Below are positions 1 to 32,715 of a stretch of DNA of 32,715 bases, in pieces. The notes beneath the pieces were generated by a model. That model saw nothing but the letters and a program-made list of their open reading frames with translations. It had not been told where the DNA came from and did no database searches. The stretch comes from Deltaproteobacteria bacterium. Lineage in GTDB: Bacteria; Desulfobacterota; Desulfuromonadia; Geobacterales; Pseudopelobacteraceae. How positions within the stretch are numbered: position 1 is the first letter of the stretch; each line of letters begins with the position of its first letter. Location: assembly GCA_019162745.1 (NCBI GenBank), contig JAFLLC010000184.1, forward strand, positions 1-32,715, in the 5' to 3' direction. The position numbers and the translations under genes were made by a program.

Positions 1-2240
1 CGTTCAAAGTAATGTCGCTGGAGCCTCCGGAGACAAGAAGGATGTTGCCGGTCGCGGCAGCTCCCAATGTTGCTGCCGTACCGGGATTAACTGTTATCGC
101 GCCGTTCGTGGTTTGCAGCAGTATCGCACCGTTCGTAGCCGACAGATCTTCTTGAGTATCCGCCGTCATAGCTGCGGCTGCTCCAGTCGTATCGACCCGA
201 TTGACAGTTAGGGAAATAGTATCAACTGTAATCGCAGAGGCTTCGTCGATAAAGATTCCACCATTCAGAGCTTTAGCCGTTATATTTACCACCGAAGTTT
301 CAAGGTGGTCGCCGGAGGCCGCAATTACCGTACCGGCAGTCATGAGCAGGTCGCTGGCCGTTATATCAACCGAGATGTCGCCAGTAAGATCAAGGATGCT
401 TCCTGCAGTGGCGATGATGGCCGCTTTGCCGGAACCGGCGTTAATTTCTCCCAAGGTGATGTTGCCGACTGTTGACTCATAGCGGATATTGCCGCCACTG
501 CTACCGGTCAAAGCGCCGTCCACCATGCTGATGCCGGTGCCGGCCTTTAGGTCGATAGTGCCATTAACCGTAGAGAGGTCAGATATGGTGGCACTTTGAG
601 AGATGGTTGTGCTCGCAATAACCGAAATACTACCCGTGTCTGAATTCACACCGGCCTGAATATCTATGGCCCCGGTTGCACTCAGCAGGATGTTGCCGCT
701 GCCATCTGCGTCAATTGCGCCGCTGACAGTCATGGCGCCGCCGGACACCAGAACTATTGGACCGTAACTGCCTGCTGTGGTGCTGATCCCGGATTGAGAC
801 AGTGCATCAGTAATATCGCCACTTCCAGCGGTCCCGGCGACTGCCACGCGGTTGACTGGCACCGCCGTAACCGTGCCGTATGTGATGTCGGTTGAATCTA
901 TTATACCGATTCCGCCGACTCCTGAACTGGCGGTCAATGTCTTAACTTCTGTTTCAAGAGCATACGCAACCGGGGTACCAATTGCGTTTTTGGCATCCAG
1001 GCGCAGCTTGTTGGCATAAACATCAACCGTAGCTTCACCACTGTTATCCAGAATCGATCCGTTGCCGGATACAATGCTGACAGAGCCCCAAGGTGTACCG
1101 CTACTCTGATTGGTCAAAGCAGCTGGAATAGCATCTCTGTCACTGGACTTACGTGCATCCAGCAAACCTACCGTGATGTTATCTGACGTAGCTGTTGCCG
1201 TGGTGTAGCGGATGTTGCCGGCATTAGTCTGGGAGACAGCGCCGTCAACCATGGTGATGGCGACATCGGCAAGAAGATCAATGGTTTTGCCGGCAAAAAC
1301 AGTCGTTATGTCGGCATTTATGCTGTTCTGGAAAATGCTGTCTTTGGAGATCAGACTAATGTTGCCGCCGCTACTGGTAACAGAGGCGTTCAAGGTGATA
1401 TCGGCTCCGGTTCCTTCGCCTGTTTCGCCGGATGACAGGAGTATGTTGCCGGCGGCAGCAATGCCGGTAGCTGCGGTTGAAGTACCGCCATTAACGGTGA
1501 TGAAACCGTCGGTGGTAACAAGCACCAGATCGCCGCCACTCGTCAAATCTTCCTGCTCATCGGCCGGATTGGTAGTCATGTCTGAGCCATTAGCCTGAAC
1601 ACGCTGGACGGCGATGCTCAACCTGGTGATCGTGACGCTGTCACTCTCGTCAATGAATGTCGAGCCGGTGGTTGATTTGGCACTCAGGTTGGCAACGGTA
1701 GTTTCAAGGTGATTTGCGCTCTGGCCAATTGCCGCTCCGGCGGTCAGGATAAGATCACGGGCGATGATATCGACAGGGCTTGTGTCAACAGCAAGATCAA
1801 GGATACTGCCAGCGGTGGCTATGACTGCTGCAACGGCTGTGGTAACACCGGCTGTCCCGGTTTTTACCTCACTAAGGGTAATGTTACCGGTTGTGGCTTC
1901 GTAACGAATGTTGCCGTTGTTGGATAATGTCAGAGAGCCGTCAGACATGATTATAGCGTCATCTGCTTTAAGATCGATAGTTTTGTCGGCCGTCAGAGCG
2001 CTGATATTGCCGGCAATACCGGTAACTGCTGACTGGATGATACTGTCTTTGGAAATAAGGCTGATATTGCCGCTGCCGCTAATGCCGGATTGCAGGGTAA
2101 TATTGGCGGTGGTGTCTTCGACTGTTTCCCCGGAAGAAAGCATTATATTTCCGGTACCAAGCGACGTGATTCTGTTAGCAACTACCGTTGCAGTAATTGC
2201 AGCGCCTGTGGAAACTGAAGTTACAACTGTTGGTAACGTG
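1..2240 (-). repeat. Higher-order ~700-bp repeat in the beta-helix, about three copies
   Basis: The landmark 'GNIRYE.T.GNITL' occurs near 480, 1,205 and 1,900. The landmark 'HLET.V.N..AK...G..FIDE' or 'ALETEVKTLTA' occurs near 240, 930 and 1,650, and 'GNILLSSGE' near 40, 690, 1,435 and 2,140. The spacing is about 650-740 bp (about 235 residues). The unit also has 'NRV' and 'QEDL' phrases. The L-E-T-x-V-x-x-L-x-A phrase is common in giant bacterial adhesins. Confidence 0.75.
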
Positions 2241-5200: not shown

Positions 5201-8200
5201 AGTCGCCTTCAGGGTAATATTACCGCTCGTGGTTGTAAGATCCGCCTGCGTTGAGAAAACCATTTTACCGGCAGCAGTGATGATGATGTCGTCGCTGACA
5301 GTAGTTATGAACTGATTAAGGTTGATGTCCCCCACATTAGTGGTGAGAGTGACTCCGCTGCCTGACGCGGTAGTAATCGCGCCGTTGATAGTCATTGTGC
5401 CATTGGATATAATTTTTATCTCTGCGTTGGAGATGCTTTCAATGCTGTTGATTACGACGTCATCGGTTGCAGTCATATTAACAGTTATGTCAATCTTGCC
5501 GCCTGCGGTAATGTCCAGCGTGTCGGCTTCAATGTTTCCGGTAACCGTTGTTGCCGCATTCAGGGTCACAGCGCCGGCCAGGGCGGTATTTTCTGTGAAT
5601 AAAATTTTGCCGGTTTTAGAGGTAATCGAAACGGTGCCGACTGTACCGGTAAATTTACCAATGGTTATATCGCCGTCCGCCACAATGGTCAGATCACCGC
5701 CGCTCATTTTGAGCTCGCCCAGATTGAGCGTACCCGACTGACTCACGGTAAAGTCGCCGCCCCCGGTCATGTTGACCACAAGACTATCAACCGCAGTTGT
5801 TATTCTGACATCATTTTTGGCGGTCAGATTGAGCGAAGCCGCCGTAATCATGTCGCCAAGCGTAAGCCCCTCACCGGCGGTTAAAGTAACATCTCCACAC
5901 TTCACAATTGGGATTGCGGTGTAGTCACCGATGGGGGTAACAACCACCAGATCCTTGGTCGCAGAGAGGGTGATGGTGTCTCCGGCAAATGTCGGCAGGT
6001 TCACCACAGTCAGCGTGCCGTCGGCGCTCGCATTCAGGACACCTGCCACTCGATCCGGAAGTATCAGAACTTTATCATCAAGGAAGTTAAGCGCACTTGC
6101 AGCGCTTCTATTGACGCTCATGACACTGTAGAAGAACGGTGTATTGGCATTAACCGCCGTCAAAGTAAAGCCGCCATTCGCGGTGTCCAGCGCTGAAACA
6201 GTAACAACGCCGACTAGATTAATCTGGGTTTGCAGCGAAGTAAGCACATCAGACCATGTGCTCCCGGTCGCCGTTTTGGTAGTACCGTTAATATTCACCT
6301 TGTAATCGAAACCGGAATTTACCGTACCACCGAAGGAGACGGTGTTGCTCTGTTTGACAGAAGAACCGATAGTCTGCGTTGTAGACGCAGCTGCTCCGCC
6401 CGAAACCGTAGTGGTTATCGCCTGTGTTACAGTAACGGCATCTATCGTAAATGGGGTATTATCCGAATCTGCTGTCAATGTAAGCTTGAAGTTTGCTTCA
6501 TCAATCTCGGCGTGGGTCGCACCCGCATTAATCAGACCTTGCAGTGTGGTAAGTACCGACAGCTTAGTGGCAAGCACCGCCGTGCCATCAACCGTTGCCG
6601 AACAAGAAATATTATTGACCTTTACTGTATATGTGTACCCAACGGCTACCGGCACCGAGGCATCAAAGGCAACCTCACTCATCTGTGGCAACGAGACCCC
6701 AGGAGCTGTTGTCGGTGTGGATCCTGATTTGGTGATAGACCCCAATGGCGTCACGGATACGTTGTCAATGCTGAAAGGTGTATTGGTGGCCTTTGAGGTG
6801 AGTGTCAGCGTCTTATTGACCGCGTCTGCGACAACTGTGACCTTGCCGACGGTATGGCTGGCGGTAAAACCGGTGGCAGCCGCCTTGGCAGTCAGAGTCA
6901 GCTTGAAATGTGCAGTATCGGCAACAGCCGTAACCACGGCCGAACCATCAGCGGTTATCAAACTGGCTAATTTGTTAATAACGGATGGCCAATCTGCCGT
7001 AACACCAGACTGACCAACAGTGGCAACGTAAGTGGATGAATTAACGGTCACTGAGTAGCTGTAATTTGTAGCAATCAAACTGTTATCAAAAGTCAGCTCC
7101 GTAACCAGCGTGGTAGGCGCGGCGGGAAGAGTAAACTGTTCGCTTGTTCCGGCCGGGATGTTCTCAAGAGCTGCTTTCAGTTCATTCAAAACCACAGGCC
7201 AGGTTTTGGCCACATCAGGCGCTGCGGCGTCATAACTGCTGACGCTTACAGGCACACCGTCAATTACTATGCCAAAGGTAGCTCCAACCGGCATTACAAA
7301 ATCAGCATAATCAATTGCGGACTGCTGGGCAACTCCGCTTGCCGCCTTGACGGTTGGGATGGAACCGTTGCCGGTTAAGGCGGTCGCTGAACTTATCCCA
7401 ACCTGACCGACTGTGAACGACGTGTTGGCAACATTAGCCTCTAACGACAGATTGGTGGTTCCTGCGGTATGCGAGCAGGTCACAGCCTCACCCGCTTCTA
7501 TCCTGGCGTCCAGCTCACTCAGTAACGAATCCCAGGTTTGAGCAACCGTTGTGCTTCTAACACTGGCCGTGCCTCCAATGGCATTCTTGAGACCGGTGGC
7601 GATATCGGCAAGGTTCGCAGTTACAGCGGTGAATTGCTTCGCCGCCCCATTGATGTAGATTGTATAAATTCCGCCGTTGACCGCAGCCAGGCCTGACAGA
7701 TTGATCGTGCGCCCCGCCTCCGTCGTGTTGCCCACCACAACCTGATCCAGCCCGCTGATCGGAGCCTGATATTGACCCGTAACAGAGATAGTCTTGAGGC
7801 CCGCGCCGACGGTGATTATAACAGTGTCACCGACAGCAGAAGCAGTATAGCCCGAGACGGCTCCCTTGATATTTATGGCGTTTGCCAGTCCGGTAGCAAT
7901 GTTCGCAATAGTAGTATCACCTGGCAGAGCGGTGTAGTCGCAGACCATGCTGCCAATGGTAGCTTTATAAACGCCACCGTTCTTCACCTCTACTCCGGTG
8001 AGATCTATGGTTTTGCTAAAGTCAGCGGGGTTAATTCCGGCACTACTGGTAACTGCTAATCCATCAGTATGAGTCACCACTATGTCCAGTTGGCCCGCAC
8101 CAGCGGTTATGTTTATCTGTTGTCCAGTAGACGAAGCAGCATATAAGGCATCAGCGTTAATCTTGCCGGCAAGTTCCGTGGCAATGATTGCCATGGTATC

Positions 8201-11200
8201 TCCGGCCACAGCAAGATGTGTAAATGGCGTTGTTGCTCCTACCTTTACCGAATAAGTCGCACCCTGAACAACCGTTATTGGGGAAAGATCAACCGTTCGC
8301 AGATCGTCTACGTTAGGTCCCTTGTTATTAATTCCGGGAATGCCGGTAACCACGCTACTGGTTGTGAAGGTAATGTCCAGAAGTCCGGCGCCGTCGGTTA
8401 TGTTGATCTGTTGGCCGCTTTTAGAAGCTACATATAGACTGTCTGAGTTAATCTTGTTAGCAAGGTCAGTTACAATAGCATCCATGCTCTCCCCAGGCGC
8501 AACTGTATGGGTAAACGCTGGAGATGTCCCTATTGTTACAGTGTAGGTCGCACCTTGGACAACAGTCACCAGGACAAGATCTACAGTACGAAGATCAGTA
8601 GACGCAGTACCAACAACACTAATTCCAGCACTGCCGGTAACTGCAGCTCCGTTAGTTTTTGTCACCGTTATGTCCAGTTGCCCAGCACCGGCTGTTATGT
8701 TGATCTGTTGTCCAGTAGACGAAGCAGCATATAAGGCATCAGCGTTAATCTTGCCGGCAAGTTCCGTGGCAATGATTGCCATGGTATCTCCGGCCACAGC
8801 AAGATGTGTAAATGGCGTTGTTGCTCCTACCTTTACCGAATAAGTCGCACCCTGAACAACCGTTATTGGGGAAAGATCAACCGTTCGCAGATCGTCTACG
8901 TTAGGTCCCTTGTTATTAATTCCGGGAATGCCGGTAACCACGCTACTGGTTGTGAAGGTAATGTCCAGAAGTCCGGCGCCGTCGGTTATGTTGATCTGTT
9001 GGCCGCTTTTAGAAGCTACATATAGACTGTCTGAGTTAATCTTGTTAGCAAGGTCAGTTACAATAGCATCCATGCTCTCCCCAGGCGCAACTGTATGGGT
9101 AAATGCTGGAGATGTCCCTATTGTTATAGTGTATGTCGCACCTTCTACAACAGACATTGAGGAAAAATTCACTGTCCGGTCAAACGCCGGATCGGCTATG
9201 TTGACAGGATTTGGATTCACGCCCGCAATGCCGGGTATCGTCAGCCATTGCTGGGCATTGACGGTAATTGGTGTATTCGCCGCAAGGCCGGTGACAGAGA
9301 TCAGCTCATTGTCCCCTACCCTTACTGCATAATTGTGGCCATTGACAACAGCACTGACCACTGAATCAGCAGCCAACACTGCGCTATTGAAGGTTATATC
9401 CGACACCTGCTTTATCGAAGAACCTGGCTGCTGGGTAACCATGCCGGGCAAGGCAACTGCATTGGCTACATCTCCGGAAGTAAATTGCACTATTTTTACA
9501 TCGCCAACCGTAAAACTGGTATTGACCGTAGCGCTCTCCAGGATCAACTTCCGTTGGGCGGCAACTACACTTACGTTTACTTTATTTGGTGCAACACCTG
9601 CAGCTTCTATCTTGGTCTTTAAAGCCCCAAGGACTGATCCCCAGTTGTTATCGACGCCGTCAACACCTGCCTCAACCACATGTGCGATCCCATTTACCGT
9701 CACGGTATATTTATATGTAGGGCTGCTGGCCAGATCGGCATCCATTATATTGGCAAAGACAACCTCGCTGATCTGGTCTGCATCGGTTCCGGCCGGCGTA
9801 GTGGCAGTAACAGTGGCAGAGACAATGCCGCCGCCGGCAGCAGCGCCTCCACTCATATCATTCTGGGTAACACCGACGGTGACACCGACTGTCCCCGCCT
9901 TGGTGAATGCCACATCCAGCCGATTGATACCGGTATCAAGCGGACTTTTAATCACTTCATAGGATGGTATACCGGTTGAATCACGCAGGGTGATTTCGTA
10001 TGCAAAGATATCCACACTATTTAACGCGCTATCACCGGCAAGCTCACTAAGTAGACCGGCGGCGTCGGCAGTAACGGTTGCATATTGCTTATGCGCCCCG
10101 ACCGCGACAGCCGCTTCTACCATACCGATCTCTATATTCTTTCCGGCATTGAGAGTGATGTTGGTGGTGGCGCCATCCAGAATCGTTTCAACATGGCGGG
10201 CAATCATAGTGCCGCCCGTGCTGATAGAGACCCCGCCATTGTTTGCCCTGATGGTATTCACGATCAGGTCATCGGCCTCATTTACTGTAACATCCCCCGT
10301 ACCGGTTGAAACCGCATCAATGGTTCCAACCAGGGTATTCAGCAAAATCCCTTTTGTGGCAAGTGCATCCAGGTCCGCAGCGATAAAGACCGAGCTGCTG
10401 TTGCTGGCAATTTCACCTGCCTGCAACACCATATTAGCTGTGGCTGCCACAATGCCGCCGGTAACGGTAAGCGTATGGTTAATGACGTCATACTTGTAGT
10501 CGGTTTCTATTGCAGGCGTTGCCAGGTTGTCGCCGTTTTCATTAGCAGCCGTTGCCGGATTGTCCAATGATTTATCCACAAGCTGGATGGTAATATCCCG
10601 CGCCCTTTCAAATCCAACCACACCACCGATATAACCGGATACTGTGAAGTCGGACTGGAGATTGATATTGATGTCCCGGCTCGCGCGGATTTCAAAATTA
10701 TTGGAGTCTATTCCCAATGCCTGGATATTGATAAAGCCGGTGTCAGTTGTTGTTACTTTCTTGTACACACCGTCTTCGACCCGGTATATTTCTGAAAAGC
10801 CGGCCAATTCACCTCTGGCGATAATAACAACCTTATCGATATTTCCGTCACCGGCGGCGATATCGCCAGTAACAGTGACATTACGGGCAGAGTTCAGCTC
10901 CAGATAATCAGATGCTGTCAAAGTTCCGGTAATGGAGATAACGTCGCCTGTCTCGATGATGATGCTCTTTGATGAGAGGTTTGCAGGGATCAGCTTGCTG
11001 GTCGCACCGGCAGCGCCAAACTGGAAGTAGTCTCCAGTCCTGTATTCAATCAGGTCGGGCGCATCACCGAAGAATTTGTACAGGTCAATAACATGAGCAG
11101 CTTTAAAGGATATCCCGTTTGAATAATCGAGGCTGTTTACGCTAACGCCACCGGTGGGCGTAACGACCTGCACGTTATCCAGATCGCTGATCAGTTTGAC

Positions 11201-20200: not shown

Positions 20201-23200
20201 GTCTGATGCATCGTATCGTGCCTTAAGAGCCGTCAGGTTTGCTGAATCAGTATGCCCCGGCATATTTGTAGTCAACAGGGTGTAAAGATTTGTTTGTGTC
20301 AGCAATGCGTTGACTTCTTTAACCAATGTTCCAAACTCTGCGTCCGTCAACGCAACATAAAGCGGATCGTTCTCTTTTATAGCCGTGCTTGTGTTGACAC
20401 TGAAGGTTGCTCCAACGGCATCAACAAGAGCATTGCAGAAGTTTTTAAGAGACGTATCTGCAAAATCAGCCACGACAAATTCAGGTGACGGAGCATCCTT
20501 GGTATATCCAAGGCTGGCGGCAACAACCGCTTTCTGCGCATCAGTCAAACTGTCAAATCCGGTTCCGGCAGCAGGGGCGCCGGCGCTACCCCAATTAATC
20601 ATATTATTGTCATAATCAACCGGCGTGCCTTCAAAAAAGGACGTCCTGACGCTGTTTGTATTCTGATTATAGTATACCGTTCCGGCGTAGTAGGTGTAAC
20701 CGGCCAAGCTCCCGGTATATCCGCCTTCGGCAAAACCGGTTACCAAATCGCTGGTAGTTGGGTTGTAGTAATAAGCGGAAACCCCGTCCTCACTTATCGT
20801 CTTGACCTGATAGCCAAGTGACTGCACTACGACCAGTTTTTGTGCGGCGGTAAGCGAAGAAAACGGTGTGTAATTTAATACTGAACTTGCAGACGAGCCA
20901 CTCCCCAGGGTGTATTTGCTTGCTGTCAGCGCGGTGATAATTGCCTGATTTACAATGCCGCTGTTGAGATTGGCAATAACCGTAGATATCGAGTTGGCAT
21001 CGGTAATTTTCGTAATAGTCTGGCCGTTGATCGTATCGAAATAATCTGCATAACCACCCGATGAGCCACCACCAACCAACTCCATTGCACCTGATGAAGT
21101 GATTGCACCGGACAATCTCATCTCACCGGCTGAAGTTATCCAGATTCCGGCGTTCTCACCGGTTTTGACCGCAACCGGCGTTGTACCTTCCCAAACAAAT
21201 TCCGCGCCGGCGGTTACTGCACCGCCGGAATTGATGTGTGCATAGGTTCCGGCGGTCATATTAATGTCTGAGTTATTTCCCCTGACCGCGACAACAGCGC
21301 CTTCAAGAATCGTCAAACCTTTACCAGCGTTGACGATAACCGACGAGCCGGTGCCTTTGGCTTCCAGTCCGGCGGCAATGATGACTGAATGGGATGTGGC
21401 CAGCTTGACAACGCTGTTGTCAGCAGTAGTGTAGATGGCGCTCCCCTGGTCGGCGGTGATGCTGTTCGGCTCTGCGCCGTAACCAACGATCACATTAACA
21501 CCGGTACTACCATTTACATTCAGATCGATCCTGTCGGTAGCTTTTATCCAGCCGGTAACGACAAGCTGTTCTGTCAGGTTAAAGGTGACCGTCCGACCGG
21601 TAACTCCTGAATCAGGAGCACCAAGCTGGTCGTGAAGGTTGGCCTTGCTGACTTCAGAAAGCCTTGCATTAAAGATGATGTCGTCGCTTGATTGAACATC
21701 GCCGACAATATTAATTGTATCAGCGGTAAAGGTTGCCAGATCGGTCAGTTTCGCATTAAAAAACGGCACGTCATTGCCCATATCACGGTCTTCGATATCA
21801 CCGACATACATGACAACATTGTTGGCAGGATTTTCATGACCGATCTGGATATGAGAGAAACCATCTGCCAAGGCATCAAAATCCCGCATCGATAAGTTCA
21901 GGTAACCGTTATCTTTGCCCTTGGATAAATCCTGGCCATATTTTGACCCGCCAGCTGCGCCAACCCTGTACATCTGGTTAAGGTCTTTCGTTTTGATGAT
22001 CAACTCACCAGTCGCGCCAACCTTGTTCGAGCCTGATGAGAAATCAACATCATCGGCAGTTATGGCGATATTACCACCGGCCTTGTTACTTTTTATGATG
22101 CCGGAGGCAAGATCAAGCAGTGATTCACGCGCTGCCAACTGGACATCAATGTTTCCTTGAGCCGCATACAAACCGCCGTTAGCTCTGGCATCATCAACAA
22201 TTGTCAAGTCATTAGCTTCTCTGACGACTATATCGCCAGCGCCGCTGTTGATAACGGTCAACTCGGCCATATCACCGGTGATAGTTCCGCTGATACCGTT
22301 GGATACGAGGGTCAGGTGGGCATCAGGTAGCTGGAACGAAGCTGCCGAAACATCGACCAAGCCGCTTGAAACGACCGTCAGATCGGTAGAGCCCCAATTG
22401 CCGCCGCCGGTGAGCGTGCCGCCACCTGCGAGATCGGAAGTGATGGTCGTTTTTACCGCCGTATCCGTAACAAACAGCCCTTCCAGAGTATCGTCGAAGT
22501 TGATGCTGCGCTTGTCATAGATGAACTGATGTTCGTTCATTTTCAGCGCTGAAGTTGATAGGATCGGATCAAGAATAGCCCTGTCGTTGCCGGAACCGCC
22601 GATAAGATCAAGCTTGCCACCCAACGCTGTTGTGCTGGCATAAATCGTATCGTCACCTGCGCCGCCATCAACCTTGTTCTTGCCTGTTCCCACGTAAATG
22701 ATATCGTTGCCGCCGGCTCCGACTACAGAGTTGTCACCAGCCCCCATATCTATTATTTCATTCGTATCGCCACCAATGAATCTGTCGTCACCCGCTTCAC
22801 CATAATAGTGGATTCCACTGGCGCCGCCTCCTGACAACAGATCATTATCCGCGCCACCATGTATCACGCTTGTGGAAGCTCCGCCGCCAACCATGAACAC
22901 GTCGTTGCCGGTTCCGCCATCAAACTGAAGCTCGGAAGTTACGCCCGGATCGGTAATAATACAGTCATTACCTTCACCACCACTGGCAACGATTTTCTTG
23001 ACACCGGTATAGGTACTGGTAACGCCAAGAGCACGCACCGTGGTAACGCCATTTTCTTCCGAAATGTTATAGGTTTCGTTCTTGATCTTCTGGTAATTAA
23101 CGTCGGTATCACGATAGTTGCCGTCACCCTGCGCCCTCTCTCCCATATTCAGATAGAGGGTATCTTCAACTTGCGTTGCAATAACCGGCGGTCTGCCCCA

Positions 23201-26200
23201 ACTCCAGACGATGTCACCGGAAACGGTCATACCCATGAGAGTAACGCTCGCCGAAAGCTGTGCGCTTGAGGCGTTGATGCGTATCAACCCGCTGAATCCG
23301 GCCAGCGTTTCGTTAATCTCAAACAACCCGAAATCAATATGGACGCTCAACCGCCCATACACGGAAAACTCAAACAGCGGGTCACTGCTGATGGTCAAGG
23401 AAGCGCCAATTTGAAGTCTGATAATGGCCAGGTCGATATCCAGATCTACCCCGGCATGAAGGTAGAAATAACCGTCGGAATTGACCTTGAATGCCATGTC
23501 AAGGTTGAGAAGTGAGCCGATTTTGAGATTCGCTTCGATTTCCAGCTTAAAAAGACCGGCAACGACGCTTATCTCCCCTTTGAAGGTTCCCCTTAGCGCC
23601 AGTACCGTTACGTTTCCATACCCTGCAGTATCAGGTGTACCATCATCATTAACACCGTGCAGCGCCAGCTTGAAGGAGGTTCCTTTAGGAACGCCAACAT
23701 AGTCGTGCGTATTGCTGGTATTTATTTCCAGCGTCGCCCCGGCCTCCAGGCCGATGATATCGATACCAAGCTTTACGTTTAGACTGGCTTTCAGGGCAAA
23801 CACCGGCCCCTCATCCGTATCAAGTATCGCAGCAGCACCCGTTACGCTAACCTTGCCGATAAAACCAAGATCAAGGGAGACATCCAGAGATGCCTGGAAG
23901 CCCTCTTTATTGATAAGTATGTCTACTGAACCTTCCAGATTTATGACACTGCCAATTGTCACAAGAACACTGCCCGCAATATGGAAGCTCTCCTTGGGCA
24001 GGTTGGCCGGCTGACTGGATGTCGGTGTAACCATTTTACCGGTGTACACGCCGTTGATTTTTTCCAGCTCCAACACCCTTTCATCATTGGCAGTCGTATT
24101 GATCTGAAGCAGGAAAGAGCCACCGATTGAAAATACTCCCGGCACGCCGATAATTTCTTCATCAGGGCCAAGTCCGGTCACATTAAGGCTGCCATAGAAA
24201 CCATTATTGGAGAATGCGAGGGTGCCGACCGCCCCCAGCTTTAACACGGGCGAAACAACTGTTGCACCGACGCTCAACTCGGCCAGGAACTGATTACCGG
24301 TTACACTGAAGAGCACACCGATATGCCCCTGGAAAGAAAGTATATCCAGCAACCTGAACTCACCATCTGCCGTCAAAGATATATAGAAATCAGCTGGCGA
24401 GGACTTACTTGGCGGTGTAGCTGAAATGGTGACTGTCTTGTAATCAAGTACGCCATCCTTCTTGCCGCCGATTGCGGTAGACCAGAAATCTTCCGGGACA
24501 TCATAAACAACGTCCTTGCCGAAGGAGTTCATGGCAAACTTCAGCTTGATATCAGAGGCGATAATCGGTTTATCAACCGGGCCGACGTTAAATCCGGTCG
24601 TCAAATCAAGTTTGACGGCAATGCCGCTGGTAATCACATGATTAGAATCCTCATACTGACCGACAACCAACAGACCAAGCGCGTGAGCGTCTATAACAAA
24701 CACGCCCTCTTTACCGATTTTAGCTTCTACATCGACGAAAATCGACAATCCGGTTGTCGAAGCCTTAATTTCAAACGCACCGGTAATATCGATAATTTTA
24801 TCGTCATCAACAAGAACGGCCAGTTCCGCCTGCCCGGCGACACGCAGATACAGGTTATTGTACATAAATACAATCGGCTTGGCCGAATTGCCCGTTTCAA
24901 TGGCATAACCAAGGTTGATAATGTCGTTGGCAGGATTATCGTCCAGATTTACCGGCAACTTACTATCCATCCAGGTGCTCTTGGAGAAATCGATAGTAGT
25001 AGGCAGGAGTGATATTCCTGCGTTATCCCTTTCAAAAGAGACAGCGCCCGTTTCTTCATCCTTGGTATAGCCGGTTGACAGCTTGAAACGGACTCCGACG
25101 TTCAGGTCCAGCATCAGAGTCTTGGCTTCCAGAACCACACTGTCAATACCGACCAACCCTATTTTATCAATACTGGCCTGCGCCGCAATATAGGTGCCGA
25201 TGGTAAGACCCTGCGCACCTATGCCTATCTCTACGCCAACGAACAGTCCAATATTAAGATTTTCAATCGCCAGACCGACTGCACCGGCATTTCTCTGATC
25301 ACCAAGATCGAATATTCCGTTGTAATTAGTATCCTCACCAAGATCCATGTAGCCGTTTCTATTAACGTCCTCGCCAAAATCAAGTACACCGTTATAATTC
25401 ACGTCCTCACCAGCATCCAATATACCGTTCTTATTGGTATCCTCGCTCGGATCCAGCTTGCCGTTATTATTAACATCCTCACTCAGATCAATTACACCAT
25501 CTTTGTCCCTGTCCTCACTCGAAGTGATGCGTCCGTCTTTGTTACTGTCATAAAAATACCCTTGTTTAGCACTGTAACCGGCCACGCTCGAAGGCACGCC
25601 AATGAAGCCATTGGCATCGCTGATGCCGATGGCAAGGGATGTTACCGTTGTTGTTTCACCATTTGAAAGTGTAACCGGGTCACCGTTACGCATGGTGAAA
25701 GCCATAGAGGCAGAAAGCTGTACGAATCCGGCAAGGTTTATTTCGGCGTAGGCGACCTTGGCCTGAATAAGTCCGCCGGTAAAGTCAAGAATCACCGACG
25801 TATTGCCGCCGGTCCAGAGGGCGTAGCCGTTCTTGGCCAGCCTGCCGTTTCTGTCGAGATCTTCAGTCAGATCCAGTAGTTCGTTACTGTTTGTATCTTC
25901 ACCCGGATCAAGTACTCCGTTAAAGTTTTTGTCCTCGTCAAATGTATCAAGGACACCGTTGCCGTTCTTGTCTTCCGGTGAAGTCGGGAAGCTGGTCTGA
26001 TAATTGATCGTCGGCGGCCCAAAAAGCTGCAGGGCAAGGTTAACAGCAACTTCTACCGTCGGATCGGGCAAAGGCCAGTAGAAGGTGTTGATATTGACTG
26101 ATATTTCCTCTGCCTTGACCGTAAGAAGTTCTGGGTCAACCCCCACCAGGCCGGCATATTTCACATCAGCTTTTACCGAAATAAACTTGGGAGTGTACTG

Positions 26201-29200
26201 TTTCAGACTTTCCGGGAGGAAGCTGAGCGCTGTAGGGGTCATGAGGGCAAAACCGAAGTCAACATCGTCGATGACCAGACCGACCGCGCCTTCGTTAATC
26301 AGGTCCGGCAGACCGTCATTATCGGCATCAGCGCCGTAGCGATACGGACCACCAACGCCGACAAAGCCGGTCAGGTTTGATCCGCCAATGGTAAGAGCTT
26401 CAACCTGAATCGGAATGGACTGCACATCAAGTTCGTTTCCGCTTATCGCCCCGCCAATAGTATTAATAATCTGCTTGAAGCCGCCCAGATCCATCTGCAC
26501 CGTCATCCGTACGCCCTTACTGAAGGCAAACGAACCACGCAGATGGAGGAACTGAGATACCTGAATTTCGGCCAGTCCAATACCGACCGCCATGATCGGA
26601 CTGTCCATATCGAGATAAATCGGATCACCGCCGGTTGCAATGGCAAGACCCGCCGGTTTTCCGGCAGCAGCGGCATAACTCTTTTTAAAATCGATCCACG
26701 TTTCAAAAAGTTGCGTTTTATCCTTGGCGGTCGTGTTGTACAGGATATCGATATTTTTAAAGCTCGCCGTGAAAACATCGCCAAAACCGACGATACCGAT
26801 TTCAGCAACATGTGCCTTCAGCGTTGTATATTTTCTTTTCGCTGTCGCACCGGTTTGGACTTCTTTTTCAGTGAACATGGCAAAAGCGATATCGATATTA
26901 TCGGCGAACACCCCCACCGGTGAAGCGCTGTTACGAGCGTCTCCGACGCCAAAGTACGGCCCTTTGACCCCCGCAAAAAGATCCACATCGCTTGCTGCAA
27001 CGGAGAAGTAATCAAAGGCGGCAACATCCTCGGTAAACAGTCCGCCTACTAATGGTATTGCTGCCAATGGGTTGTCAGTGCCGATGTGCACGCCGCTAAT
27101 GGAGCCTTTCTTGAAGGCAAAATTACCGGATATATACAGAAAGCCATCAAGAGCAATCAGTGCATTATTGAGCTCAACCTGAATAGTCTCACCATTTTTG
27201 CCATCAAGATTCATGATGAACGGATCGCCAGGCAGAGTTATTGTAACGGCACCGCTGAAATCCAGTCCCTGTGGAATGGAAAGATTTTTAGCCTTGTAGT
27301 CGATGACCCGACCCTTGCTGTCTGCCGTGTTGACCGCAAAAGCAAGATGATCCGCCTTCAGCTCGAAAACCGGCATGCCGACAAAGCCGAAGTAGTCGCT
27401 GCTCCCCTGAAGAGTAAAATATGTGTCGCCGGTGGCACTGACAGCCAGCACAGCTCCGATGCTCAGGTCTTCAATTTTGAACCCGATCTCGTCAGCAGTC
27501 CCCTCGTTGGCTCCGGCAAACACATCAAGATCAACGATGGCGGCTGAAAAGTACATGACGTTGGTACTGCTGCCGTCACTTAAAAGAAGGCTCTTCATCT
27601 TGATTGTAAAATCGAAATCCGATTCATACTTGATGTAATCAAATGCGGTAAAATTAAACGTTCCTCCAAGATTGATGAAACTGCCGGCTGCTCCTTTGAT
27701 TTTTGTGAAGTCGACTGTCAACTCCTGGCCGGCTACCGTAAAACCGGTCATTGCAGCAAAATCTACTGTCAAATCATCGTAAGAAGAAAAATTGACATTC
27801 AGCCTGATATCATTACCAGCGATTTCGATACCCGGCAGTCCGGTAAAAGAAACCGAATCCGCAGTCGCTGCCATGGAAGTCCATTGACGCCTGGTATCCC
27901 CCTTATCAGTCATAGCAAGGAAAGCAAAATCCAGATTCACAATATTGAACCCAAAATCACCAACCCCGGCAAAAGCGTTTACATTGGTGCCGGTAAGGGC
28001 AAGCATATCCACAGAAGCAGATGTCTTATCAGACAAGGATATTGTTCGTGCCGACTTTTCAAAGGCAAAAGCACCATTCAATTTGACAAAGTCGAACAGG
28101 TTTATATCAAGCGTTCCGGAGGCCCGCAGCATCTCACCCTTCATATCAAGTGTCACGACCGTCGCGCCGCCGCCAACCTCAATAACGCCGCCAATCCCCT
28201 CTTTTACCGGGAAACCGGTCGTAAGGTTATCACCCTGCAGGTATTGCGAGAAATCGATACTTGAACCGTCTTTAGATGCCGTATTTAACGCTACATCCAG
28301 ATGAGAAGCACTGATATTGAAAATATCCGGCCCGACAAAACCGACAGTATCGGCTGTGGCCTTGGCTGCAATCCAGTACTGCCCTGCGTGGACTATGTCG
28401 GCGCTGTAGACAATAGCCAGACCGACATTGGCGTTATCAATTTTAAAACCGAATTCGTCATCAGTGCCGCCGTTAATGCCGGCAAAGGCGTTGATGTCAC
28501 CTTTACCAAAAGTAAGCATACCAACCATGACACGATCTTCTTTTCCGGAAGCGTCAACGACCGTGACCGTTTCAAACGTCTGTTCGATGGAGATCGACTT
28601 GGTAAAATCGAAGAAACCGGAGATGCCAAAGGTAAACGTGCCGCTGATGGCCGCATAACTTTTCGTGGTTTTCTTTAGATCGAAGGTGATGCTTGCCGTT
28701 GAACCGGAAGGAGTTATAGTCAGCGGGTCAGCGGTAAAATCGACGATCGAGTTATCTTTCGCGATACGATTGATGGCAACATACAGGTCACTACCGCTGA
28801 GCTCCATGAAGTCCATACCGACGAACCCGACTGAATCGGCAGTAGCTTTCAAGGCGGACCAGGTGCGGGCAGTGGCGGGTGTAACACCGGTACCAGTTTC
28901 CACCATGGTTAACATGGCGAAATCGACATTATCAATCTTGAAGCCCATCTCATCCGCACTGCCGCCATTAACGCCGACAAAGGCGGTGACATCCAGCGCC
29001 CCGATTGTTAGAGTATCAACATTGACCACATCAGGAGCGGTTCCTTCATCCGGTCCATCCACATTAAGCGTAACGGTCTCACTTCCCCGTTCAAAGACCA
29101 GCGTGGCATCTGCGTAAAAGAATTCAAATGCTTTAAGCTTTACCTGGCCGGATGCCGCGATGGAGCCACCGGTAATGCCTTTCATATCAAGGATAGCCGT

Positions 29201-32200
29201 ATCTGACCGACCGATAGTGACGTTAAGGTCCGTCCTGGTTTTCACAAAATCGACTGACGAATTGTCGCTGGCCGCAATATTAATGGCAACATCAAGGTTA
29301 TTTCCCTCGATGGTTATGCCCGGCAGGCCAACGACAGCCAATTGGTCGCCACTGCCTTTAAGGGCGGTCCAACTTCGGGGAACTCCGGTCGCGCCGACAG
29401 CCAGTTTCTCCTTAAAGAGCGCCAGTTGAAAATCAACATTCTTGATACTGAGGCCAACACCGCTAACACCGACAAAGGCATCCAGATCTCCCGCACCAAA
29501 GGCGAACATATCGACGTTAACAGTTCCGCCGCTGCTTAACACGACCCTGCGGGTCGCCATTTCCAGAGTGAAGAGGCCGCTTACATCAAAGAATCCGCCA
29601 ACCTTCAGGTCAAAGACAGCACTCGCCTTGAGGTAATCGCCGTCACTCCCCTTCATGTCCAGGACAACGCCGGAGGTCGAACCAAAGGTTGTGCCCAGCA
29701 CGGTTGTCGTCTTGGCAAAATCAACCACGCTGCCATCTGTGGCGGCACGGTTTAAATCGATATCAATCTCATTCGCCGATATGGTCAGTGAGTCGCCTAA
29801 ACCAACGACTTCAACCGCTCCGGCATGTGCCTTGAGTGCAGACCAGCTCAGCAGGCCCGCCTTGTCATTCAGCAGCGCCAGACTGAAATCCACATCAGTA
29901 AGTTTCAGACCGGCTTCCGACCCATCTGTTGCGCCGCCATTAACTCCGACAAAAGCGTTAAGGTTCGCGCCATACAGGGAGATGACATTAAGGTTTTTCT
30001 TGGTGGAAACAGCGCCTTTGGTAACAAACACATCCGATGTTGACTTTTCAAAACCGATTATGCCGTCCAGCATAACGAAATCACCAAGGCGGATGGTTAC
30101 ATCGGCCTCAACTTTGAGCAGTTCGCCGCGAGAACCTGCCAAGTCAAATATAACGTGTTTGGTAACGCCAAGATCGTCCACACCGGTGATAATATCAACG
30201 GCATTTCCAGCAGTTTTCATCTTGCCAAAATCAACGACAGTACCGTCAGCTGCAGCCTTACTGACGAGGATTTTTGCCTCATTGATACCGAGTGTTATCC
30301 CGGGGAGGCCAAGCACTTCGGCAGAGCCGATGTTTGATTCCACCGCCGTCCAGCGACGACCACCCAGTTCGGAAAAAGTTACCAGCGCCAGGTCAACATC
30401 TTTGAAACGCAGGCCAAAATCTTCGCTGCCATCTGCTGCGTCACCGGCATAGCCAAGCATGGCATCGACATCGGTCATGCCAAAAGCAATAACAGCGGTA
30501 TTGACCGTGGTGTCGTTTGAGAGGGTGATGCTGCGTGATGAACGTTCAAAGGCAAAACCGCCGCGCAGCGTTACCAAACCGAACAAGTCGATGTCTGTGT
30601 GGCCGTACACCTGCAGCATATCGCCTTTTTTGCCATCAATACCGAAGGCAACCGTTTGCACCTCGCCGGCACTATTTACTCCGGTTGTGGCCACATAGGC
30701 ATTACCGGCTGTCTGCATCGCCTTGAAATCGATGACAGTATTGTCGGACGCCTTTTTGTTCATCACGATGTGAGTATTATCAACCGCCAGGGTCACATCT
30801 GGAATACCCTCAAAAGCGGCGTAGCCGATGGTTGAGTCAACGGCGGTCCATTTGCGGCTGCCAGTGGTCTCTTTAAAGGTTGCCAGGGCAAAGTCAACAT
30901 CGGTAAATTTGAGGCCGATATCATCAGTCGGATCAGCAACGTCACCGGAGTATCCGGCAAAGGCGTTGACATCGGCCATGCCGAACATGGTCATGTTGGT
31001 ATTCACCGTGGTGCCATCGGAAAGCTTCACTGATTTGGTTGATTTTTCGAAACCAAAGCCGCCTTCAATCATTACAAAATCAAACAGGTTAATGGTTGCG
31101 TGTCCGTAGACCTGCAGCAGATCACCTTTTTTCCCATCGATGGCAAAAGTTACCGTTTTGGTAACGCCTGCAGCATTGACCCCGGTGGTCGCCACATAGG
31201 CATTTCCAGCTGTCTGCATCGCCTTGAAGTCGATAACCGTGTTATCAGCAGCCTTCTTGTTCATGATGATGTGCGTGTTATCAACAGCCAGAGTCACACC
31301 GGGGATACCGACAAAACCGGCATAACCGATGGTCGAATCAACGGCGGTCCACTTGCGACTGCCACCGGTTTCCTTAAAGGTTGCCAAGGCAAAATCGACA
31401 TTAGTAAATTTAAGACCAATATCATCGCTACCATCCGCCGCACCACCCTTGACACCGGCAAAAGCGTTAACATCAGCCATACCGAACATGGTCATGCTCG
31501 TGTTAACCGTAGCGCCACTGGAGAGGGTCACTGTTCGCGTTGACTTTTCAAAGCCGAAGCCACCTTCAACCATTACAAAATCAAACAGGTTGATGGTTGC
31601 GTGTCCGTAGACCTGCAACAGATCGCCTTTTTTCCCATCAATAGCAAAGGTAACCGTCTGTACTTCTGCAGCGGCATTGACACCGGTCGTAGCGACGAAA
31701 GCGTTGCCAGCGGTCTGCATCGCCTTGAAGTCAACAACAGTCATGTCCGTTGCCGAGGCTTTCTTGTTCATAATGATGTGGGTATTATCAACCGCCAACG
31801 TCACATCAGGTATTCCCACAAACCCGGCGCTACCAATGGTGGAATCAATAGCAGTCCATTTGCGCTTGCTGCCGGCAATCTCGGTAAACGTTACCAGAGC
31901 GAAATCAACATCAGTGAAGCGAAGGCCGATGTCGTCAGCAGAAGTTGCCCCCTTGACTCCGGCAAAAGCATTAACATCAGCCATACCAAAGACCAGCACA
32001 TTGGTATCAACCTTTGTCGCATCAGACAACGTTACCTGACGGCTTGACTTCTCAAAGCCAAAACCCCCCTCAACCATGACAAAATCGGCGATGCTGATTG
32101 CAGTATGTCCATACACCTGGAGCAGATCGCCTTTATTGCCGTCAATTCCAAAGGTGACCGTCTTTGTCTCGCCAGCGCTGTTAACTCCGGCGATAAAAGA

Positions 32201-32715
32201 GAGTGCCGTACCGGCTGTTTCCATGGCTTTAAAATCGACCACCGTATTGTCGGCGGCTTTTTTATTCATGATGATATGGGTGTTGTCTACCGCCAGCGTG
32301 ATATCTGAAGAAATCCCGACAAAAGCAGCTCCGCCGATGGTGGAATCAACTGCGGTCCACTTGCGCTTTGCGCCGCCGGTCTCGGTAAGCAGAGCCATAC
32401 CGAAATCCACATTGGTAAACTTCAGCCCGATATCATCATTCGGATCAGCAAGATCACCAGGAGAACCGGCAAAAGCGTTGATACCGGTCATACCAAGCAG
32501 CAGCGCGTCGGTAGCAACCTGAGTGTGAGCGACATCATTCAAGGTTACCGTTTTGGTTGACTTTTCAAAGCCAAAGCCACCTTCAACCGTTACAAAACCG
32601 AACAGGCTGAGATTAAGATGTCCGTAAGCGCGGATCATCTCGCCTTTACTGCCGTCAAGGTCAAGCGTGATCGTTTTACCGCTCGTGCCGGCAAGGACGC
32701 TGACGTTGGCGTCGC
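1..32715 (-). CDS. Giant multi-repeat surface/secreted protein, partial at both ends (>10,900 residues)
   Basis: One minus-strand frame is open from edge to edge, with no start or stop in the window, so the gene is longer than 32.7 kb. The protein is built of beta-rich repeats: an array of about 167-residue modules at the N-terminal side, EF-hand-like loops, an amphipathic beta region, an RTX block, then a long FHA-like beta-helix broken by other module families. Cysteine is almost absent: I saw seven (near 22,968, 20,437, 11,795, 7,942, 7,480, 6,610 and 5,897), as is usual for exported giant adhesins. No transmembrane segment, signal peptide or enzyme active site was recognised, but both termini lie outside. 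Known families with these parts are adhesins, biofilm-matrix proteins and S-layer-like proteins; the exact job is unknown. The single frame, in-frame repeats and largely synonymous differences between duplicated units argue that it is a translated gene and not a decayed one. Confidence 0.95.
2250..2490 (-). other. Isolated 98-residue-type module
   Basis: 'LKTLDFTGVTITAGTIYTIT', then 'AYTYTAVAGDTSATIVSKI' and 'DLINGG' follow the pattern of the type 1 modules at 7.6-9.2 kb, about 5 kb away. It is a single copy, lodged between beta-helix turns. The last part ('YLDSNKINIYDNG') is shorter than in the array copies. Confidence 0.7.
2990..3105 (-). repeat. Dispersed 'L...DGFxxIxIG' motif, copy 3 (degenerate)
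   Basis: 'ISNSLISRINAATFEKIVIG' followed by 'GTGSVRIGA'. The DG of the core is replaced by Ala-Thr, but the helix-like lead, the F-x-x-I-x-I-G core and the following strand are kept. Confidence 0.5.
3845..3955 (-). repeat. Dispersed 'L...DGFxxIxIG' motif, copy 2
   Basis: 'LSKDEMANIRDGFSQIVIG' followed by 'SGSVIYLGDTTG'. It aligns with the copy at 21.8 kb over the start, the DGF core, the I-x-I-G strand and the later strand ending in Leu/Val-Gly-Asp. Confidence 0.6.
8115..8556 (-). repeat. Near-identical direct repeat, C-terminal copy
   Basis: This 442-bp stretch matches 8,703-9,144 at an offset of exactly 588 bp (196 codons, two modules). I found three mismatches, at 8,516, 8,539 and 8,546. 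Those at 8,516 and 8,546 are synonymous (Ala, Thr) and that at 8,539 exchanges Val and Ile. The first 401 bp are identical. Confidence 0.93.
8703..9144 (-). repeat. Near-identical direct repeat, N-terminal copy
   Basis: Partner of 8,115-8,556. Together the copies form an ABAB order of two slightly different 98-residue modules ('TYTVTIGTSPAFTH' and 'TYSVKVGATTPFTH' types). The low divergence compared with all other modules here points to a recent tandem duplication or gene conversion. Confidence 0.93.
10010..13230 (-). other. FHA-like beta-helix, segment 3
   Basis: About 1,070 residues with regular turns such as 'GSVRFTEVAGVS', 'GGNMNLSESSQVKTTTAAS', 'GNIDIASSKAVNLLDLS', 'GDITATKVNTFG' and 'GGVSISTGGTMIARHVET'. 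A helical insert lies at about 11,540-11,930. The phrase style (D-I-x-L-T/S-x-x-G-x-I) is that of bacterial filamentous adhesins. The left boundary is where the 98-residue modules begin. Confidence 0.75.
11540..11745 (-). repeat. Helical insert, copy 2 of a dispersed ~70-residue unit
   Basis: The unit reads 'WLNSVLSVTSLYSQVTT', then 'SATLSLLKANYDD', 'DDLALLNRRLLEEYY' and 'TPM'. It shares the order L-N-x-x-L, L-Y, T-T, S-A-x-L, L-K-A-x-Y-D, D-L, N-R-x-x-L-x-E and T-P-M with a unit near 20.1-20.3 kb. It lies inside beta-helix segment 3 and is predicted helical from its Leu/Ala/Glu spacing. Function unknown. Confidence 0.7.
13230..15330 (-). other. Second block of tyrosine-rich modules with Trp/Asp-rich end
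   Basis: At the N-terminal side, copies related to the 19.2-21.0 kb modules are seen: 'EGIDYFNDKIDW', 'LNDAEKQAVLNNTGY' and 'LSEVQRNAVAMNLGY'. After 'YTQYLSRYDNTS' the sequence changes to a charged, aromatic region with 'DVDGTGYRVYEVSNDLLA' and 'NRDPNWQW', then the Trp-rich stretch listed separately. Beta-helix turns resume at 'GTVTINAGKNVTISGR'. The block interrupts the helix and is unlike it in composition. Function unknown. Confidence 0.75.
13235..13770 (-). other. Trp/Tyr/Asp/His-rich stretch (~178 residues)
   Basis: The stretch opens with 'SFNYWGDTYGDG' and an acidic run 'DGSDSFDNDGWNDDPDEGD'. It continues through 'SSSWDDTVSWHRHF', 'DYHMIYWNWQDNY', 'DYTYAWTSDWHDIYDTR' and ends near 'TEMQTWTETG'. 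I count about eleven Trp and six His, in a protein where Trp is otherwise rare. It has no resemblance to beta-helix turns. A carbohydrate-, metal- or protein-binding role is possible but not shown by any motif I know. Confidence 0.8.
15330..19170 (-). other. FHA-like beta-helix, segment 2 (longest helix run)
   Basis: About 1,280 residues of beta-helix turns with the FHA style: 'GDLTLLGGVSLGGEITAG', 'KDVDIHGRVVAGGSIG', 'GNISIEGWVRGAKAINLY', 'RNVNIEGVVESTRA' and 'KTVTVMG'-like strands. One stretch (about 17,600-17,800) reads 'VTLKLEFDDGNGFDSYDIV' followed by 'ITSWYNFRLL'-like strands, and may be a small inserted domain. Nothing in the segment suggests an enzyme. Confidence 0.75.
19170..20990 (-). 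repeat. 'LGY-YYN-EGxDY-W' modules, about six copies, inserted in the beta-helix
   Basis: A module of about 60-90 residues recurs. It has a helix-like start (L-T/S-x-A-Q-K/Q-x-x-V/I-x-x-x-L-G-Y), then 'YTGPVYYN', then 'VTTLIEGTDYQNDD' and a closing I-x-W. Good examples are 'LTAAQKLVVVQSLGY', 'LTDAQKAVVAASLGY', 'LTIAQKNIVLAKTGY', 'LSPLQQEIVLAATHN' and 'MTAAQQNAIINSLGY'. Aromatic residues are far denser than in the flanking helix. I do not recognise a named family. The modules could be folded knobs projecting from the fibre. Confidence 0.8.
20130..20335 (-). repeat. Helical insert, copy 1 of a dispersed ~70-residue unit
   Basis: The unit reads 'VKEVNALLTQTNLYTLLTT', then 'DSANLTALKARYDASD', 'SDLQNFNRAALGEFL' and 'YTPM'. 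It aligns with the unit at about 11.6 kb, although about 8.6 kb lies between them. Here it sits among the tyrosine-rich modules. It is unlike the surrounding beta sequence and probably folds as helices. Confidence 0.7.
21000..22560 (-). other. FHA-like beta-helix, segment 1
   Basis: About 520 residues of short beta-strand turns typical of filamentous-haemagglutinin-like helices: 'GDIVVREANDLTIVDDA', 'GGNIAITADDVDFSS', 'DTINIVGDVQSSDDIIF' and 'GAITSSGAMELVGGGS'. It begins right after the RTX block and ends where the tyrosine-rich modules start. It contains one 'DGFSHIQIG' motif. The fold is inferred from the pattern. Confidence 0.75.
21790..21900 (-). repeat. Dispersed 'L...DGFxxIxIG' motif, copy 1
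   Basis: 'LSMRDFDALADGFSHIQIG' followed by a Gly-closing strand 'VVMYVGDIED'. The same layout occurs near 3.9 kb and, weaker, near 3.0 kb, always between beta-helix turns. It may be a capping or connector element of the helix; this is inference. Confidence 0.6.
22575..22930 (-). repeat. RTX (haemolysin-type) calcium-binding nonapeptide repeats
   Basis: A run of GGxGxDxxx-like motifs is visible: 'FDGGTGNDVFMVGGG', 'IHGGADNDLLSGGG', 'YYGEAGDDRFIGGD', 'VVGAGGNDIIYVGTG', 'VDGGAGDDTIYAS' and 'LIGGSGNDRAILD'. These match the parallel beta-roll of RTX proteins, where the Asp side chains bind calcium after export. In most RTX proteins the block is near the C-terminus; here about 7,500 residues follow it within the window. 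It separates the amphipathic beta region from the FHA-like beta-helix. Confidence 0.92.
22930..25070 (-). other. Long amphipathic beta-strand domain without clear repeats
   Basis: About 710 residues in which strands alternate apolar and polar residues, for example 'FQASLDVSLDLGFIGKVSV', 'GIDIIGLEAGATLEINTS', 'FKLEIEANLKIG' and 'IIRLQIGASLTI'. It follows the 167-residue array and leads straight into the RTX block. Such a pattern fits an extended beta-sheet or groove with one hydrophobic face. It is reminiscent of bridge-like or AsmA/TamB-like beta-groove proteins, but I see no signature that proves homology, and no catalytic motif. The boundaries are approximate. Confidence 0.6.
25298..25549 (-). 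repeat. Seven contiguous 12-residue EF-hand-like calcium loops
   Basis: Seven back-to-back 36-bp units encode 12-residue loops of the form D-x-N/D-x-N/D-G-x-I/L/M/F-D/T-x-x-E/D, for example 'DSNKDGRITSSE', 'DTNKNGILDAGE' and 'DVNRNGYMDLGE'. Positions 1, 3, 5, 9 and 12 match the liganding positions of a canonical EF-hand loop, and Gly is at position 6 in all seven. There are no flanking helices and no linkers, unlike a calmodulin EF-hand or a dockerin. The block sits inside one beta module, just before 'AGAVGLAIENLNIGL'. Calcium binding is inferred from the loop pattern. Confidence 0.9.
25826..25972 (-). repeat. Second cluster of EF-hand-like loops, partly degenerate
   Basis: Four 12-residue loops follow one another: 'DKNGNGVLDTFD', one extra Glu, 'DKNFNGVLDPGE', 'DTNSNELLDLTE' and 'DLDRNGRLAKNG'. 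The first two are intact. The third has Glu in place of the Gly at position 6, and the fourth lacks Asp at position 9 and an acid at position 12. The cluster lies about 280 bp upstream, in the reading direction, of the seven-loop block, in the same beta-module array. It probably binds calcium with fewer sites. Confidence 0.8.

Follow-up and report, generated by a model that had tools for sequence, protein, structure and literature searches.

The closest described relatives of the protein reported here are the LEPR-XLL giants (NF012209, LEPR-8K), with which it shares an N-terminal LEPR-XLL signal scoring over the profile cut-off and an enormous, repetitive body; the name LEPR-8K suggests a length of about 8,000 residues. 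Other systems resemble the locus in part. Giant RTX adhesins of type I systems (LapA-like) also combine TolC and HlyD with a giant cargo bearing calcium-type motifs. The accessory Sec system (SecA2/SecY2) of Gram-positive bacteria likewise dedicates a second SecA to a large surface protein made of repeats. Peptide (RiPP) systems contain RRE domains as well as M50 proteins, and a protein of the present locus, here called M50-HlyD, resembles the RRE protein TbiB1 (PDB 5v1u/5v1v) in the predicted fold of its N-terminal domain and in its match to the PqqD profile.

In the literature searched, LEPR-XLL is mentioned in two papers, in passing in both. A Vibrio giant that combines LEPR-XLL with RTX has been published. 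According to a survey of huge proteins, these are abundant in Planctomycetota and related phyla; the word LEPR is absent from its text. How single chains of 10,000 to 15,000 residues are exported is, as far as we could find, unanswered for the LEPR-XLL class.

The window lies within one giant gene

The window, that is, the whole stretch of 32,715 b analysed here, is an entire contig (C38) of a 4.5 Mb assembly in 237 contigs. A six-frame stop count revealed no stop among the 10,904 codons of the minus frame at offset 2 (window 2-32713), against 192, 281, 563, 818 and 856 stops in the remaining five frames. If bases are taken as independent and at the composition of the window, a frame of this length would stay open by chance with a probability of about 10^-232. 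The minus frame of about 10,904 codons running off both edges, proposed in the first-pass annotation, was thereby borne out. This open frame, together with an in-frame overlap with a second contig, C129 (Table 1), supports the proposal that the whole window lies inside a single gene exceeding 32.7 kb. The upstream edge of the window matches the end of C129 over exactly 55 identical bases, probably reflecting a link in an assembly graph with k = 55. The C129 frame comprises 2,385 codons from an ATG (C129:3-7157, minus strand) and carries close to its start the motif LFRLESLEPRVLLSADPL, the LEPR-XLL signal, which matched NF012209 with 33.6 bits and 26.1 bits in two scans (cut-off 17). The anticipated LEPR-XLL-like start was therefore located on the overlapping contig, and C129 and C38 together encode at least 13,272 residues, with the 17 shared codons counted once. 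Just upstream of the giant, C129 carries a SapC-family gene (L029:7293-8048; PF07277, E 4e-70).

At the downstream edge, no overlapping contig was detected by direct testing of contig C26 or by a similarity search of the genome (E 0.001). C26 opens inside an 1,800-codon frame (C26:1-5403) whose repeats are of the kind seen at the end of the window and which is closed by a stop at 5,403; pieces of this ORF are 36-54% identical to the window's end. Judged from this sequence resemblance, C26 probably holds the C-terminus of the giant; its likely join to C38, at which the contigs do not overlap, would bring the total to about 15,070 residues plus a gap. The C26 ORF was matched in 5 of 39 genus genomes, its own included; the matches in the other four fell in open frames of 46 (G041), 674 (G019), 1,205 (G043) and 1,247 (G042) codons, and the sequences L066 and L067, which resemble the contigs of G042 and G043, start within the frame.

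GC by codon position was 0.54/0.45/0.52 over the whole frame, and position-2 GC was lower than position-1 GC along most of it, with the gap fading or reversing past codon 9000. Selection was measured in the initial repeats of the window as well as in the flanking contigs. Four adjacent internal repeats of the window gave pN/pS values of 0.14-0.41 in all six pairs; they differ mostly synonymously, which argues for selection on translation in that part of the window only. In the flanking contigs, pN/pS against relatives was 0.35 to 0.48 in four of four comparisons, with synonymous sites near saturation. Internal repeats keep phase and account for 41% of the codons at the threshold used, so that the earlier statement that phase-keeping repeats show the frame to be under selection holds for this share of the codons as regards phase, and for the first repeats as regards selection. 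When codons 4000-6999 were searched against 10 genomes, without a positive control, no relative emerged. We conclude that this is a genuine gene, which adds a new member to the LEPR-XLL giants.

Anatomy of the giant protein

The features located in the window are listed in Table 1.

Table 1. Features of the giant gene in the window, with positions in window coordinates.
Feature	Position	Strand	Remark
Giant LEPR-XLL-type gene, internal 10,904 codons	2..32713	-	Open at both contig edges
Overlap with end of contig C129	32661..32715	-	55 identical bases
~165-residue beta-rich repeat array	25214..32713	-	14 anchor matches, last ones irregular
Eight EF-hand/calcium-loop-like motifs, DxNxNGxLDxxE type	25298..25972	-	Motif match only
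RTX-like stretch, four GGxGND-type motifs	22580..22993	-	Weak PF00353 match
Second internal repeat array	6311..9673	-	Holds near-identical tandem copy
C-terminal repeat array	2..2473	-	Continues in kind on C26:1-5403

The ~165-residue repeat extends into C129, which carries 8 further anchor matches. A two-unit model of this repeat, based on 15 aligned copies, had a mean pLDDT of 89 and long beta strands, and the repeats are accordingly predicted to be all-beta. A Foldseek search with the two-repeat model returned no convincing fold (best E 0.0099, TM 0.18), so the repeats were given no fold name. The PF00353 match in the RTX-like stretch (E 5e-4, 20.3 bits) fell under the cut-off of 23 and was the only match in Pfam and NCBIfam scans of the window; a PDB sequence search with three pieces of the window yielded three weak RTX-type matches, all from the first piece. 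Long Thr/Ser/Asn/Gly-rich stretches follow the RTX-like part and by eye look like filamentous-haemagglutinin-like beta helices. No TPS/haemagglutination activity domain (FhaB-like) was detected with Pfam in the N-terminal part (E 0.1), the C38 pieces or the C26 ORF (both E 0.01), and no Pfam family was matched by the N-terminal 2,385 residues on C129 at E 0.1 or by the C26 ORF at E 0.01. The LEPR-XLL N-terminus itself has no marked hydrophobic stretch.

The tandem copy in the second array (window 8051-9088, minus strand) is 97% identical over 150 residues, which suggests that it arose by a recent duplication in frame or else reflects the assembly.

Giants in related genomes and on finished plasmids

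LEPR was detected at E 0.001 in 6 of 76 family genomes, including the genome studied here. Intact LEPR frames on a single contig reached 15,577 codons in G023 and 15,071 codons in G006, and LEPR frames elsewhere in the phylum comprised 10,549 (G392), 9,783 (G290), 5,651 (G366) and 1,842 (G152) codons, the last specifying a small cargo of only 1,842 residues. Among 62 plasmid records with an M50-HlyD match, four were inspected in detail. On the finished plasmids of the cultured isolates Pseudosulfitobacter sp. DSM 107133 and Pontibrevibacter nitratireducens, a gene annotated as LEPR-XLL lies beside the cassette of membrane genes described below and measures 38,757 b and 31,812 b, respectively; on a Mesorhizobium ciceri plasmid, the cassette adjoins a giant of 31,557 b with an Ig-like annotation. 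The gene table of the Rhodobacteraceae M382 plasmid, itself incomplete, lists no LEPR gene or giant; a peptide-type ABC transporter lies 8-13 kb from the cassette region in this strain. The Pseudosulfitobacter cassette also contains an annotated SapC gene. The single-contig LEPR giants and the LEPR-XLL genes on finished plasmids make an assembly artefact unlikely for the class.

The body of the giant is unlike those of the G023, G006 and G011 giants, apart from one local match of 29% identity. Two types were distinguished, type A being the C26-type giant of the genome studied here and type B the G023 and G006 giants. The idea of one giant common to the whole genus was rejected, since the two types are alike only in the LEPR motif and in the local 29% match.

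The cassette of membrane genes

The C26 ORF is followed by genes for TolC, HlyD, a GAF-HlyD protein, M50-HlyD and a SecA-like protein. The G023 and G006 giants are flanked by the same kinds of genes despite their dissimilar bodies. Identity between the type A and type B cassettes was 31-32% for M50-HlyD, 39% for the SecA-like protein, 27% for GAF-HlyD and 24-25% for HlyD, and TolC of type A (C26) had no BLASTP match to TolC of type B at E 1e-4.

The distribution of the cassette was surveyed at the best 80 of 415 M50-HlyD relatives in named genomes. Among these 80 loci, GAF-HlyD was present in 70, the SecA-like gene in 66, HlyD in 53 and TolC in 43, and M50-HlyD, GAF-HlyD and the SecA-like gene occurred together in 59 loci from about 12 phyla, counted as phylum labels (three Myxococcota-labelled rows are titled only Deltaproteobacteria, and three rows are unlabelled). 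The three closest M50-HlyD relatives within this set came from Geobacteraceae MAGs (85, 80 and 72% identity), which makes the uncultured bacterium that carries the window probably a member of that family. A large ORF or a LEPR motif accompanied the cassette in 21 of the 80 loci, many of whose contigs end nearby, and in 13 of the 28 loci having at least 7 kb on either side; some of the large ORFs beside cassettes may be spurious antisense frames. In literature other than preprints and most subscription papers, we found no description of a SecA/HlyD/M50/TolC system for giants and none of a link between RRE/PqqD, HlyD and M50, an account of which may exist elsewhere. The cassette is thus an undescribed partner system, as far as the literature could be searched.

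In C26 the cassette is followed by clustered genes of MiaB-like, radical SAM and methyltransferase types (L008:14984-19776 and L009:52-5717), whose products might act on the giant or serve to make something separate. Five genes of this cluster are 51-60% identical to their G023/G006 counterparts, compared with 24-39% for the cassette genes. A search of the 80 cassette loci for four of the cluster genes located them in one, a Geobacteraceae contig. Further along (L009:6347-16703) lies a locus that by eye resembles polysaccharide/exosortase-associated loci and contains genes for a TPR protein, a sugar transferase, polysaccharide export, chain length and a kinase. The genome also encodes a second, more distant M50-HlyD (G000:C49:6494-8497; 314 bits).

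Co-occurrence of LEPR and M50-HlyD

Of 394 genomes of the phylum, 13 had LEPR at E 0.001 and 10 had M50-HlyD above 670 bits; nine genomes carried both (Fisher p 1e-14, relatedness ignored). A strong M50-HlyD was present in all nine genomes with LEPR of at least 30 bits, versus 10 of 394 overall (Fisher p 1.7e-17, relatedness ignored), the 30- and 670-bit thresholds having been picked after the scores were known; with looser E-value limits the association had a p value of 6e-11. The nine genomes represent seven families, with two genomes in one genus and two more in one family. In seven of the nine, the LEPR gene and the cassette are neighbours on a single contig, and in the genome studied here (G000) and in G252 they lie on separate contigs.

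Two discordant genomes of one genus, G247 and G440, each hold part of the locus at a contig end: an open frame of 4,853 codons followed by the cassette in G247, and TolC followed by a LEPR giant in G440. Discordance remains for G148, G163 and G192. G148 has a LEPR ORF of 4,641 codons (24.6 bits) and no strong M50-HlyD in its 610 contigs, and G163 has weaker M50-HlyD matches of 338 and 313 bits.

A further LEPR profile was built on 17 of 20 N-termini, 6 of which came from the 84 loci (80 cassette loci and four plasmid loci) later searched with it. It matched 11 of the 84 loci at E 0.001, five of them outside the training set, and LEPR adjoins M50-HlyD in several phyla.

The SecA-like protein, the RRE-like domain and the LEPR leader

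All 15 SecA-like proteins contained SecA_DEAD, PP_bind and P-loop_SecA, and none of the 15 contained SecA_SW (the wing and scaffold with the two-helix finger) at E 0.001, a threshold at which the set matched six families in all. As the SecA-like profile aligns to residues 8-608 of the solved SecA 1tf2_A (844 residues), the SecA-like protein reads as a SecA lacking the C-terminal quarter. The part so missing includes the two-helix finger, which is credited with pushing the substrate in SecA. In a tree, 19 full-length SecAs from several phyla lay on one side of a branch separating them from the SecA-like proteins (support 99); two further short SecA-like proteins (L200 and L202) were included, of which L202 was nearest to the full-length SecAs. 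L202 is a Kiritimatiellota protein of 620 residues (G463:C1:2607980-2609779). Full-length SecA and the short SecA-like protein were both present in all nine genomes searched (eight of the nine LEPR genomes and G023).

The motifs HExxH and NPxxxxD were invariant in 20 of 20 M50-HlyD proteins. The PqqD profile matched the N-termini of M50-HlyD (residues 12-137 and their counterparts) in 29 of 46 proteins at E 0.05, with a best E of 2e-9; the M50-HlyD of the genome studied here gave E 0.004, under the cut-off. Four of the 15 plasmid matches listed carry a PqqD family annotation. In a Foldseek search with the model of the M50-HlyD N-terminus, the four best PDB matches were TbiB1 with leader peptide (prob 0.99-1.00, E 0.025-0.071, none below 0.001); the oxygenase NO66 made up most of ranks 5-23, and a RiPP heterocyclase was at rank ten. 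This model and the profile matches suggest that M50-HlyD may carry a RiPP leader-binding (RRE/PqqD-like) domain at its N-terminus.

The LEPR N-termini are mostly basic and then continue into FExLExRxLLSAD, with no marked hydrophobic core: the highest 12-residue hydropathy mean ranged from 0.48 to 1.54 among 20 LEPR N-termini from 21 loci, hydropathy being the only measure applied. These N-terminal features, together with the PqqD/RRE-like match, led us to propose the RRE-like domain as the reader of the LEPR leader.

Proposed export route and alternative explanations

We consider it fairly probable that the gene encodes a giant LEPR-XLL surface or secreted protein exported by the adjoining M50-HlyD/SecA-like/HlyD/TolC cassette, a route that we infer from sequence and gene neighbourhood. 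The RRE/PqqD-like N-terminal domain of M50-HlyD, in the inner membrane, would bind the LEPR leader, and the shortened SecA-type ATPase, without wing, scaffold and two-helix finger, would push the giant from the cytosol. M50-HlyD, GAF-HlyD and HlyD with TolC would form the conduit to the outside; for the pore in the inner membrane, M50-HlyD would have to form it, or else the housekeeping SecY would serve. Cleavage of the leader, or release of the protein, may take place later at the HExxH site, although this role of the M50 part is a guess. At the surface, the product would be a very long calcium-stabilised adhesin or filament. Several observations weigh against the proposed route: the SecA-like protein has no two-helix finger; TolC of type A and TolC of type B did not match; a large ORF or LEPR motif accompanied only 21 of the 80 cassettes; G148 has a LEPR ORF and no strong M50-HlyD; the G152 cargo is small; the TbiB1 matches have high E values and are followed mostly by NO66; and the M382 plasmid has an ABC transporter and no listed LEPR gene.

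The RTX-like stretch, the EF-hand-like loops and the TolC and HlyD neighbours are also consistent with an RTX-type adhesin leaving through an ordinary type I system, with TolC and HlyD part of that system and its ABC transporter encoded elsewhere, and the published Vibrio giant with LEPR-XLL plus RTX points the same way. We nevertheless consider this unlikely. A motif screen detected ABC-ATPase-like ORFs in 2 of the 80 cassette loci and none in the other 78, while 66 of the 80 have a dedicated SecA-like gene instead; moreover, the RTX stretch lies mid-protein, and what the two giant types share is the N-terminal LEPR, not the body or the C-terminus.

Less likely again is that the giant uses general Sec to cross the inner membrane, with the cassette only modifying, anchoring or processing it. 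The 20 LEPR N-termini lack a marked hydrophobic core by hydropathy, and translocation is the most sensible task for a SecA-like ATPase of its own, even though a full-length SecA is available in each of the nine genomes searched and the M50 metalloprotease motifs and RRE-like domain do suggest processing.

It is distinctly improbable that the true cargo of the cassette is another product, for instance a modified peptide or a polysaccharide, and that the giants adjoin it for another reason. This reading draws on the RRE domains and M50 proteins known from RiPP systems, on a match to the daptide protease NF041824 (156 bits, under the cut-off of 300), and on the radical SAM cluster and polysaccharide-like locus after the cassette in C26, but the radical SAM genes recur in only one of the 80 loci, and LEPR accompanies a strong M50-HlyD in nine of nine genomes and is adjacent to it in several phyla.

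An assembly artefact or a decaying gene, to which the position of both contig edges within repeats might point, is strongly disfavoured by the absence of stops in 10,904 codons, by low pN/pS between internal repeats and in the flanking contigs, and by intact LEPR genes of similar size elsewhere and long LEPR-XLL genes in finished plasmids.

Export of the giant through its adjoining cassette, the reading preferred here, can be carried one step further. Tentatively, and with somewhat less than an even chance in our estimate, the cassette may represent a new secretion system spanning about 12 phyla, in which an RRE-like domain reads the LEPR-XLL leader and a finger-less SecA feeds an M50-HlyD/HlyD/TolC conduit with no ABC transporter. 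If true, a RiPP leader-binding domain and a shortened SecA would each be put to a new use here. As the cassette tracks the LEPR signal across phyla, the proposal is open to a direct genetic test in cultured plasmid-bearing isolates.

Comparison with known systems

Compared with LEPR-8K giants, the protein described here is longer than the name implies, at about 13,300 to more than 15,000 residues, and has its own repeat types. It is set apart from type I RTX adhesins by the SecA-like ATPase and the N-terminal signal, and by the 78 of 80 loci without an adjoining ABC transporter. Unlike SecA2/SecY2, the locus is of Gram-negative type, and its SecA, without the C-terminal quarter, is partnered by HlyD and TolC, with the proposed docking of the leader on an RRE-like domain. 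Finally, in contrast to TbiB1, the RRE-like domain is here fused to an M50 protease and an HlyD arm, and the putative leader heads a giant protein rather than a small peptide.
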